A stretch of DNA of 62,468 nucleotides, taken from positions 55,111-117,578 of the forward strand of contig NZ_JH417574.1 of the NCBI RefSeq assembly GCF_000239275.1, written 5' to 3'. Position numbers and translations under genes: made by a program. Numbering within the stretch: position 1 is the first letter of the stretch; every line of letters begins with the position of its first letter. Below are positions 56,581 to 62,468 of this stretch, piece by piece. The notes under the pieces are model-generated. The model did no database searches. It saw only the letters and a program-made list of their open reading frames with translations, and was not told the origin of the DNA. Origin of the DNA: Megasphaera geminata F0357. Its GTDB lineage: Bacteria > Bacillota > Negativicutes > Veillonellales > Megasphaeraceae.

Positions 56581-57327
56581 ATGATACGCATAGCCATATG
56601 TGATGATGACACAAAGCAGCTTCATGATATAAAGTCGATGTGTGAACGTTGCTTGCGAAATCACACGGAAGAAATCCGCTATACGCTCTATGACAGTTCT
56701 TTTCTTCTCAGCGAAGAGCTTGAACGGGGAAGAGTATTTGACATTTTCTTGTTGGATATTTATATGCCCGGCATATCGGGCCTGGATATCGCTGCGGAAA
56801 TACGCCGTAAAAAACTTCACGGCGAGATCATTTTTCTTACCTCAAGCGATGAATTCGCTATTGAAGCCTTTTCTTTGCAGACGATTCATTATCTTATAAA
56901 ACCGATAAAAGAAAAAGAACTGGACATCGCCCTTGGACGCGCCTTTGAAAAGATAAAGACGGACCGCGAAACGAGGATCGTTTTTAAGACCTCGGGCGGC
57001 GGCTTGCAAATCGAAGATATTGACAATATCTCCTTTATAGAGAGCCGGGGCCATATATTGACGGTCTATTTAAAAGACGGTTCCTTCATTACGACAAGAC
57101 GGACGCTTGCAGGGCTGCAAAAGATGCTGGATGAAATAATGCCGCATCAATTTATATCCCCCGGAAAAGGATATATTGTCAATCAAAAAGCCATCCATAT
57201 CATCAAGCCGGGGCACATCGAAATAAAAGGGCATATTATTCCCATTGCCCAGCGGAAATTCAGAAAACTTCAGGAAAACTATTTTAATTTTATGCTGCAA
57301 AAGGGTATCGGCGGCAGGCAGGTATAG
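56581..57327 (+). CDS. LytTR-family response regulator (paralogue 1)
   Basis: A 248-residue two-domain regulator. The receiver domain (about 1-120) has acidic pocket D8/D9, phospho-acceptor D59 in LLDIYMPGISGLD, TSS and K107. The LytTR DNA-binding domain (about 135-240) follows, with FIESRGHILTVYLKDG, RTLAGLQKMLDE and PGKGYIVNQKAIHII. Such regulators bind pairs of short direct repeats and control virulence or adhesion genes. No histidine kinase is adjacent. A paralogue with about 60% identity by eye is at 60215; the first 10 residues (MIRIAICDDD) are identical. Confidence 0.9.
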   Translation: MIRIAICDDDTKQLHDIKSMCERCLRNHTEEIRYTLYDSSFLLSEELERGRVFDIFLLDIYMPGISGLDIAAEIRRKKLHGEIIFLTSSDEFAIEAFSLQTIHYLIKPIKEKELDIALGRAFEKIKTDRETRIVFKTSGGGLQIEDIDNISFIESRGHILTVYLKDGSFITTRRTLAGLQKMLDEIMPHQFISPGKGYIVNQKAIHIIKPGHIEIKGHIIPIAQRKFRKLQENYFNFMLQKGIGGRQV

Positions 57328-60214: not shown

Positions 60215-60955
60215 ATGATACGCATAGCCATATGTGATGACGACAGATATCAGTTGGTTGAGATCAAAAACTTGGCTGAGCGCTGTCTGGCAGATCGGGC
60301 CGAGCAGATTGACTATATATTATATGACAATTCCTTCCTTTTTATGGGCGACGTGGAGCGGAATAAGCATATCGACATTCTTCTCCTGGACATATATATG
60401 CCCGGTATATCGGGCCTGGACATCGCTTCCGAGATCAGAAAACGTGAAATGCGGACGGAAATTATCTTTTTGACCTCAAGCGACAATTTTGCAATCGAAG
60501 CATTTTCACTGCAAGCGTCCCATTATCTTCTCAAGCCGGTTGATAACGGCCGGCTTCACATGGCGCTGGAACGCGCTCTGAAAAATTTAGGCAAAAAAGA
60601 AAGCAAGCAGATTGTTTTTAAAACCGTAGGCGGCGGTCTCCAGGTCGAAGCCATTGACCGCATCGCTTTTATTGAAAGCCGCGGCCATACACTGATGGTC
60701 CACCTTAAAGGCCGTTCCATCATTGCCGTCCGGCATACCCTGACAGGACTCCTGCACGTGTTGAATGCAAAATCACCGGGCCAATTTATCGCTCCCGGCA
60801 AAGGGTATATCGTCAACCAGAAGGCCATCCACATTATCAAACGCGATCATCTGGAAGTAATGGGCCATATCATCCCCGTTGCCCAACGGAAATACCGAAA
60901 AATACAGGAAACCTATTTCAAATTTATGTTTAACAGGGAATTAAGCAGCCGGTAA
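60215..60955 (+). CDS. LytTR-family response regulator (paralogue 2)
   Basis: A 246-residue paralogue of the regulator at 56581, with receiver motifs D8/D9, D59 (LLDIYMPGISGLD), TSS and a LytTR domain (GGGLQVEAIDRIAFIESRGHTLMVHLKGRS ... PGKGYIVNQKAIHII). GAAAGGAAA precedes the ATG. No kinase partner is adjacent. It lies 165 bases upstream of the trimeric autotransporter gene, which makes it a candidate regulator of the adhesin; that is inference. Confidence 0.9.
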   Translation: MIRIAICDDDRYQLVEIKNLAERCLADRAEQIDYILYDNSFLFMGDVERNKHIDILLLDIYMPGISGLDIASEIRKREMRTEIIFLTSSDNFAIEAFSLQASHYLLKPVDNGRLHMALERALKNLGKKESKQIVFKTVGGGLQVEAIDRIAFIESRGHTLMVHLKGRSIIAVRHTLTGLLHVLNAKSPGQFIAPGKGYIVNQKAIHIIKRDHLEVMGHIIPVAQRKYRKIQETYFKFMFNRELSSR

Positions 60956-61120: not shown

Positions 61121-62468
61121 ATGAATAAAATTTACAAGGTCGTATGGAGTAAGCTCAAGTCCTGCTATGTCGTGACGTCGGAATTTGGCAAAAGCCGGAC
61201 GAAATCGTCCGGTTCCGGCAAAAGGGCAGGAAAGGCCTTCGTTTCTGCCGTCGCCCTGACCGCGTTCCTGAGCTGCACCGGCCTCGCCGGCGCCGTTTCT
61301 AACCAAACGGTTGATTCAGACGGCAAATTGCCGAGCGGTACAAATGTTGTAGTAGGAGAAGCTTCCGATTTACTGACGAAAACCGATGCCAATACAACCT
61401 ACTTGTCCAAGGCCGATGCTAATGCAACCTACTTGTCCAAGGCCGATGCCAATACAAATTACTTGTCCAAGGCCGATGCTAATGCAACCTACTTGTCCAA
61501 GGCCGATGCCAATACAAATTATGCCACGAAAGCAGAGCTGTTAAAGGAAGAAACGGATCGCAAGGATGCCGATACGGCATTGGAAGGAAAAATCGGCAAA
61601 GTGGAAGACAAAACGACCAATATCAGCTATAATGCGGGCGGCGGTACGAATGTGGACGGCGTCAACATTAAAAACGGCGATATGTCGGGAGTGAAAAAGA
61701 TCAACGATATTACCGTGAACAACAATGCGCTTAGCAATATATCGACACTGGAAACGACAGGCGATGTTAAAGTAGGCGGTGATCTTACCGTCAAAGGAAA
61801 ATTCATGCCCGATGAAGTTCTCATAAAAGACGATCATAATAACCTGACCGATATCAAAGCGGGCAGCATAGAGAGCAAAAACGCGAACTTCACGGGAGAT
61901 ATCCACAACAATACAATCGAAGGCAGTAAGCTCAACTTCGATACGAACGGCTTCGGCGTATCGGCTGTCGGACTGGGCGTCACCGGCGGCAACGGCGCGG
62001 AAATGAAGCTGCAGAAGGATAAAATCTCACAGGAAGTGCTGGACGCTGCCGGAAATTCCAACAGCGAAGTCAACACGTCCACAAAATCGACGCATATCGT
62101 CACAAACGGCACAGAGAAAACGACGGTGGAACAAACCGCAGCGGATATCAACCTGACAGCCGAAGACGGGAATATCAACAATAAGGCGAAGAATATCACG
62201 AATACGACGACCGAGGATATGACCAATACGATCGGCAAAGATCTGACGACTAACGTAGGCGGCGACCAGTCCACCAACGTGACGGGCAGTCAGTCCAATA
62301 CCGTAGGCGGCCATCAATCCAACACGGTAATCGGCAATCTGACCGAAAGTGTTGCGGGCGACGTCACGGAAGACTACAAAAAAGATCAAACGACTACCGT
62401 AGGCGGCAATCAGACCAATACCGTCGGCGGTAAACTGACCGAAACCGTTACGGGTGATGTCGAGGAAA
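61121..62468 (+). CDS. Trimeric autotransporter adhesin (YadA-like) with ESPR (3' partial)
   Basis: The frame is open from ATG 61121 to the window end (449 codons). Residues 1-25 (MNKIYKVVWSKLKSCYVVTSEF...) form an extended signal peptide region, followed by a hydrophobic core (residues 39-58, cleavage near AGA-VS). Five tandem decapeptides (DAN-x-x-YLSKA; 61385-61534) follow, then stalk-like regions. From 62222 the sequence is ten unbroken octapeptides of the kind TNTVGGNQ (V-x-G-x5), as in gp5/VgrG spike beta-helices. The C-terminal membrane anchor would lie beyond the window. AGGAAGGAAG precedes the ATG. Confidence 0.9.
   Translation, partial: MNKIYKVVWSKLKSCYVVTSEFGKSRTKSSGSGKRAGKAFVSAVALTAFLSCTGLAGAVSNQTVDSDGKLPSGTNVVVGEASDLLTKTDANTTYLSKADANATYLSKADANTNYLSKADANATYLSKADANTNYATKAELLKEETDRKDADTALEGKIGKVEDKTTNISYNAGGGTNVDGVNIKNGDMSGVKKINDITVNNNALSNISTLETTGDVKVGGDLTVKGKFMPDEVLIKDDHNNLTDIKAGSIESKNANFTGDIHNNTIEGSKLNFDTNGFGVSAVGLGVTGGNGAEMKLQKDKISQEVLDAAGNSNSEVNTSTKSTHIVTNGTEKTTVEQTAADINLTAEDGNINNKAKNITNTTTEDMTNTIGKDLTTNVGGDQSTNVTGSQSNTVGGHQSNTVIGNLTESVAGDVTEDYKKDQTTTVGGNQTNTVGGKLTETVTGDVEE
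61385..61534 (+). repeat. Five 30-base tandem repeats in the adhesin
   Basis: Five near-identical 30-base units encode DAN-T/A-T/N-Y-LS(AT)KA. Some units are identical over most bases, so the copy number could vary by slippage. Confidence 0.9.
62222..62461 (+). repeat. Ten octapeptide (24-base) repeats of gp5/VgrG beta-helix type
   Basis: Uninterrupted register of eight residues: TNTIGKDL, TTNVGGDQ, STNVTGSQ, SNTVGGHQ, SNTVIGNL, TESVAGDV, TEDYKKDQ, TTTVGGNQ, TNTVGGKL, TETVTGDV. Most units keep V-x-G; the seventh is degenerate. The pattern continues at the window edge. Confidence 0.85.

Follow-up and report, generated by a model that had tools for sequence, protein, structure and literature searches.

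A predicted gp5/VgrG-type beta-helix as an internal shaft in trimeric autotransporter adhesins of Negativicutes

The 62,468-nucleotide stretch of Megasphaera geminata F0357 DNA analysed here (the window) ends inside a gene that poses a question. It starts like a trimeric autotransporter adhesin (TAA), and its last readable part is a run of octapeptides resembling those of phage and VgrG spikes. Do these octads form a spike-type beta-helix, and what would such a helix do in a surface adhesin? The 5' part of the gene lies at 61121..62467 on the + strand and encodes 449 aa in an open frame that meets no stop codon. The source contig, C15, stops exactly at the window end, so the gene is cut there. 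Scaffolds of Negativicutes frequently terminate in TAA genes with an anchor and SLH domains (PMC5491611), which explains this truncation. A candidate for the 3' half was looked for in the same genome. YadA anchors are found on C31, C42, and C44, and none could be assigned to the window gene; the start of C31 looks like another adhesin type. A search of the contigs found octads nowhere beyond C15.

The frame begins with an extended signal peptide region of type V secretion (ESPR, residues 1-48, 61121..61264, + strand). The profile search of the window frame gives PF13018 an E-value of 2e-14 and 54.2 bits, against a cut-off of 25. This agrees with the initial annotation, which had proposed an ESPR signal and decapeptide repeats in the adhesin. 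The latter are present as YLSKADANAT units, encoded by a 30/60-bp DNA tandem repeat (61383..61521, + strand) with a lag-10 identity of 0.69. The same annotation placed a YadA-like stalk before the octads. That element was not recovered: in the profile search, the part of the gene inside the window does not match YadA_stalk. The sequence YATKAE comes directly after the decads and fits only loosely the beta-layer consensus, [aliphatic]-A-T-K-[polar]-[DE] (PMC4786415). The decads are probably a fibre element of the beta-layer or coiled-coil type. Decads and YATKAE together recall phage tail-fibre repeats as well as the beta-layer motifs found in alpha/beta coiled coils. A passenger segment without an informative fold prediction separates the decads from the octads (61667..62182, + strand). 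It is about 30-39% identical to its homologues in the alignment, and its AlphaFold2 pLDDT of 44.5 says little about the fold.

Ten octads in one register follow at 62222..62461 (+ strand), the first starting at residue 368 (nt 62222). They read TNTIGKDL, TTNVGGDQ, STNVTGSQ, SNTVGGHQ, SNTVIGNL, TESVAGDV, TEDYKKDQ, TTTVGGNQ, TNTVGGKL, and TETVTGDV. The form first given for them, (T/S)N-x-V-x-G-x-x repeated ten times, was right in the number, continuity, and register of the units. It was too strict in the residues: V-x-G is present in eight of the ten (TNTIGKDL and TEDYKKDQ are the exceptions), and Asn occupies position 2 in four. The periodicity is clear. At lag 8 the identity reaches 0.44, while the other lags up to 24 (multiples of 8 excluded) give 0.01-0.16. 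Up to five V-x-G octads stand in succession, and 2000 shuffles of the region never gave more than three. The block probably runs on beyond the contig end.

The octads could be a convergent low-complexity repeat of T, N, G, and V with another fold (a single-chain solenoid or a disordered linker) that only carries a gp5-like motif. Their composition is indeed of low complexity, and the profile that detects them is unspecific. The isolated window octads score 44.9-45.4 bits with Gp5_trimer_C (PF22178) and 27-29 bits with Gp5_C (PF06715), both above the Pfam curated cut-offs. However, PF22178 is also triggered by unrelated 8-residue repeats, with 102.6 bits for a Glu-rich repeat in an OmpA-type protein and 78.8 for a TDDSISIS repeat. 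These false matches lie at L096:871-2868 and L077:2964-4298, respectively. Annotations based on PF22178 alone are unsafe, and a control by column permutation was needed. Eight full shuffles of the octads had zero matches to PF22178 or PF06715. Six permutations of the octad columns, which keep the octad period and the composition, reached at most 25.1 bits with PF22178, below its cut-off, and had no Gp5_C match.

The comparison with known structures goes the same way. With phmmer against 177,635 PDB sequences, every match of the window octads with an E-value below 0.05 was gp5, a gp5 chimera, a Vgr protein, or a baseplate central spike. The gp5 chains ranked first and VgrG was weaker, both before anything else. 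Two column-permuted versions had no match to gp5, VgrG, or spikes in the PDB, and the two repeats that falsely match PF22178 had none to gp5 or VgrG. The profile check proposed at the outset thus came out in favour of the helix, with signals of 45.4 bits (Gp5_trimer_C) and 29 bits (Gp5_C) that are lost upon permutation. Searches with the longer octad block of a homologue gave a similar picture. Against phages, tblastn found 402 records, and among the 20 listed, the annotated ones are gp5-type baseplate hubs or tail lysozymes. Against plasmids, 11 of the 12 records are annotated as the VgrG/Vgr family, and the PHROGs match is a tail lysozyme (E 1e-22). No near phage source for the window's own octads was found in phages or in viral contigs, the latter scan being limited to patterns.

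The AlphaFold2 monomer of the octads is confident (pLDDT 90.9, from a 19-row alignment), and its chain path tracks that of VgrG and gp5. With VIA-align, the best structural match is VgrG 9jg9 (Z 8.5 over 115 residues), and gp5 has Z 4.0 over 114. Foldseek returned a single PDB chain, gp5 1wth, with a TM of 0.85 by query length, an rmsd of 2.6, and a weak E-value of 4.1. The BFVD fold search was also weak (E 3.6 and above), with base plate lysozymes named in two of six matches. Weak Foldseek values are expected from an isolated extended chain. The octad models are monomers, and AlphaFold2 may recall gp5 or VgrG chains from training.

The reference for this fold is the C-terminal triple-stranded beta-helix of T4 gp5 (PF06715, PF22178; PDB 1k28, 4jiv). 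The adhesin shares with it the V-x-G octad, N or D after the Gly, and an obligate trimer context. Locally, the two are nearly identical by phmmer against the PDB (TTLVEGNQTNTVNGNL against TTTVGGNQTNTVGGKL). In gp5, the position after Gly forms an N/D surface ladder (PMC4576200). We counted 277 octads from 17 related sequences, where V/I at position 4 and G at position 6 are set by the search pattern and position 7 varies freely; this position after Gly is D or N in 170 of them (61%). In contrast, the E/K position is not kept. E and K are reported to alternate between V and G in residues 483-525 of T4 gp5, and are not known to be required by the fold. The 277 octads have mostly T, G, or S there (E+K about 12%), so the salt-bridge ladder of gp5 is missing. 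The adhesin also lacks the lysozyme and OB domains of gp5, and its octads are internal, whereas the gp5 helix is at the end of the spike. In homologues, some octads are broken by 7-residue units and by octads centred on Y or F. Many of the length differences between homologues correspond to whole octads, and some to 7-residue units.

The missing E/K ladder is a further point for convergence on a merely gp5-like motif. Against it stand the loss of the Gp5_C and PDB matches when only the columns are permuted, the lack of gp5 matches for the unrelated 8-residue repeats in the PDB search, the retained N/D after Gly, the confident model along VgrG and gp5, and purifying selection on the octad cassette. 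We consider this explanation unlikely. Convergence in sequence upon the same trimeric fold is possible. We regard as well supported, and expect to hold, the reading in which the octads form part of an intertwined, triple-stranded beta-helix of the gp5/VgrG type, which would serve as a rigid internal shaft in the TAA passenger and not as a puncturing needle.

This reading needs a protein that is truly an adhesin. The window frame could instead belong to a spike or injection component (VgrG, gpV, or gp5-like), or be an assembly chimera in which, close to where the contig stops, an adhesin start was joined to a phage spike. The contig does end inside the repeats, and the same class has a genuine gpV/VgrG-type spike with similar octads (L083, Phage_base_V). 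VgrG and gpV-type spikes (T6SS) have the same repeat. Unlike them, the adhesin is exported as an autotransporter, and the profile search found no OB or Phage_base_V domain and no gp27-like part in the window frame or in homologues. A lysozyme domain is also absent from the window frame, and the ESPR is present.

Complete homologues in related gut bacteria contradict this. Six relatives, in Megasphaera, Acidaminococcus, and related genomes, have the ESPR, Gp5_trimer_C, and the YadA anchor in one open frame. The longest is G002 (2371 aa), from a single-contig genome. G003 (2212 aa), G018 (2000 aa), G015 (1823 aa), and G023 (1815 aa) have the same order, and all five carry SLH after the anchor. 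The sixth, G341 (1107 aa, its record containing a run of N), has ESPR, octads, and YadA anchor without SLH. G005 and G019 share both ends of the gene with these six, and have few octads. A spike or an assembly chimera is therefore highly improbable. The anchor asked for in the initial annotation was thus found by proxy, in the six relatives (usually with SLH), since the window copy itself is cut. Its central proposal, a spike-type beta-helix within a TAA, is supported by these genes together with the profile and PDB matches. SLH after the YadA anchor has been described for Negativicutes (PMC5491611) and also outside them (PMC7549365). In the C-terminal thirds of L032, L034, and L074, Bactofilin-like matches (PF04519) occur in the passenger before the anchor. 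They suggest further beta-solenoid-like segments in the homologue adhesins.

The position of the octads bears on their use. In the homologues they are internal, sometimes in two blocks, with hundreds of residues between them and the anchor. The repeat is the same as in cell-puncturing spikes, and the adhesin helix might be a contact-dependent puncturing needle. In type Vc secretion, the C-terminal side of the passenger faces the producer cell. In gp5 it is the C-terminal end that is directed at the target; here that end would be turned towards the producer, and neither a sheath nor a tip protein was seen nearby. Internal octads with this reversed orientation make puncturing unlikely, and we give the needle very little credence.

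As a shaft, the segment could work as follows. The ESPR would direct the chain to the inner membrane. The C-terminal YadA anchor, as in the homologues, would form a trimeric pore in the outer membrane and keep the three chains in register. SLH behind the anchor would probably grip the peptidoglycan and so tie the adhesin to it. During emergence of the passenger, three copies of each octad would wind round a common axis, with V/I pointing to the inside, then Gly, then N/D at the turn. The product would be a slender, stiff shaft, probably resistant to proteases and heat, inside a longer composite fibre. It would act as a stalk or spacer that carries the more distal binding parts. For gp5, a length of 100 Angstrom is given for residues 389-575 (PMC4576200). 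With the gp5 dimensions and the beta-sheet spacing, we estimate a rise of 4.3-4.8 Angstrom per octad. The shaft would then be at least 4-5 nm long in the window and about 12-14 nm in the G002 homologue, whose block has roughly 29 octads. The three-chain helix of the window protein, its stiffness, and its adhesive function are inferred.

We then asked how widely the octads occur. Within the order, the octad profile matched six of 61 genomes: four belong to the genus and two to family f2. The 28 genomes of family f4 (probably the Veillonella family) gave no match. Within the class, Gp5_trimer_C matched 17 of 380 genomes, and 13 are adhesins by inspection. The remaining candidates (G163, G187, G200, and G218) were rejected, being one true spike and three proteins with unrelated repeats. 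Elsewhere in the phylum, PF22178 matches in 398 genomes were discarded as octad adhesins; the window's own aside, they are low-complexity repeats or lie in unclear frames. When 84,980 species genomes were scanned by pattern, eight loci were found, all in Negativicutes; the patterns were drawn from these same adhesins, so that other carriers may be missed. The named matches are Megasphaera sp. NM10, Veillonellaceae bacterium Marseille-P2974, Acidaminococcus massiliensis, and A. fermentans. Others are a Dialister MAG, uncultured Selenomonadales, and uncultured Acidaminococcus. The distribution of the octad cassette is patchy.

The cassette is also more alike between families than the anchor encoded by these genes. 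Comparing G002 against G018, G015, G019, and G023, the octad DNA is mostly 80-87% identical, while their C-terminal anchor regions reach about 67-68%. This difference makes exchange of the cassette by recombination probable. The cassette is under purifying selection: dN/dS values are 0.10-0.19 in seven of eight comparisons, and the short eighth has no amino acid change. At L083:5981-7408, a Negativicute gpV/VgrG-type spike (Phage_base_V) has octads worded like those of the adhesins (VGKDLSSKVGG). A spike of this type is a possible donor type, and direct transfer from injection machinery to the adhesin is plausible. A wider scheme can be proposed tentatively, and we hold it somewhat less probable than its contrary. 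A spike-type octad cassette, ultimately common to phage and T6SS needles, would circulate among adhesin genes of several Negativicutes families. It would be an exchangeable rigid shaft with octad-wise length, usually with its own LytTR regulator, on a general route from injection-machine parts to adhesin stalks.

How much of this is new depends on what is known of these adhesins. The trimeric autotransporters of Veillonella are similar in having an ESPR, a YadA anchor, a C-terminal SLH or coiled coil, and genes at scaffold ends in Negativicutes; unlike here, the passengers described are YadA heads and stalks (PMC5491611, PMC7549365). PMC7247746 presents TAAs as modular homotrimeric fibres of beta and coiled-coil parts, like the present protein. 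Its repertoire includes YadA heads, Trp-ring, necks, FGG, saddle, and coiled-coil stalks, and the portions of its domain table covered here have no gp5-type triple-stranded beta-helix. Searches of open-access literature gave no report of such a helix in a TAA. PMC6555100 and PMC8286594 mention neither gp5 nor VgrG. A known fold and a known protein class are apparently seen here in a new combination. If true, trimeric autotransporters would gain a new shaft type among their structural modules, and the gp5/VgrG needle fold would be exportable by type Vc secretion. The homologues would offer a natural series of regular beta-helices of varied lengths for folding and engineering studies. An element familiar mainly from injection machines seems to double as an adhesin shaft, which bears on how Negativicutes living in gut or mouth (Megasphaera, Dialister, Acidaminococcus) construct their surface fibres.

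Finally, the adhesin has a recurrent neighbour. A LytTR response regulator (60215..60955, + strand; PF00072, PF04397) lies 165 bp upstream. In eight relatives, from more than one family, its homologues lie next to octad adhesins. They are in tandem with the adhesin in G003, G005, and G002 (the last truncated), and divergent from it in G015, G018, G019, G023, and G154. In four loci (G341, G339, G021, and G064, some of these stretches being short), no LytTR gene was seen beside the adhesin. These genes are rare, with one to three found per genome; in the whole source assembly two were found, both in the window. The LytTR protein is a candidate regulator of the adhesin by this conserved adjacency. 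In the Acidaminococcus-type genome G015, a GHKL sensor-kinase gene adjoins the LytTR gene. The LytTR gene next to the G002 adhesin (L032:12589-13062) is apparently reduced to its DNA-binding half. In the window, the two similar LytTR regulators (56581-57327 and 60215-60955) bracket a group of enoyl-CoA hydratase-like and CoA-transferase-like genes.
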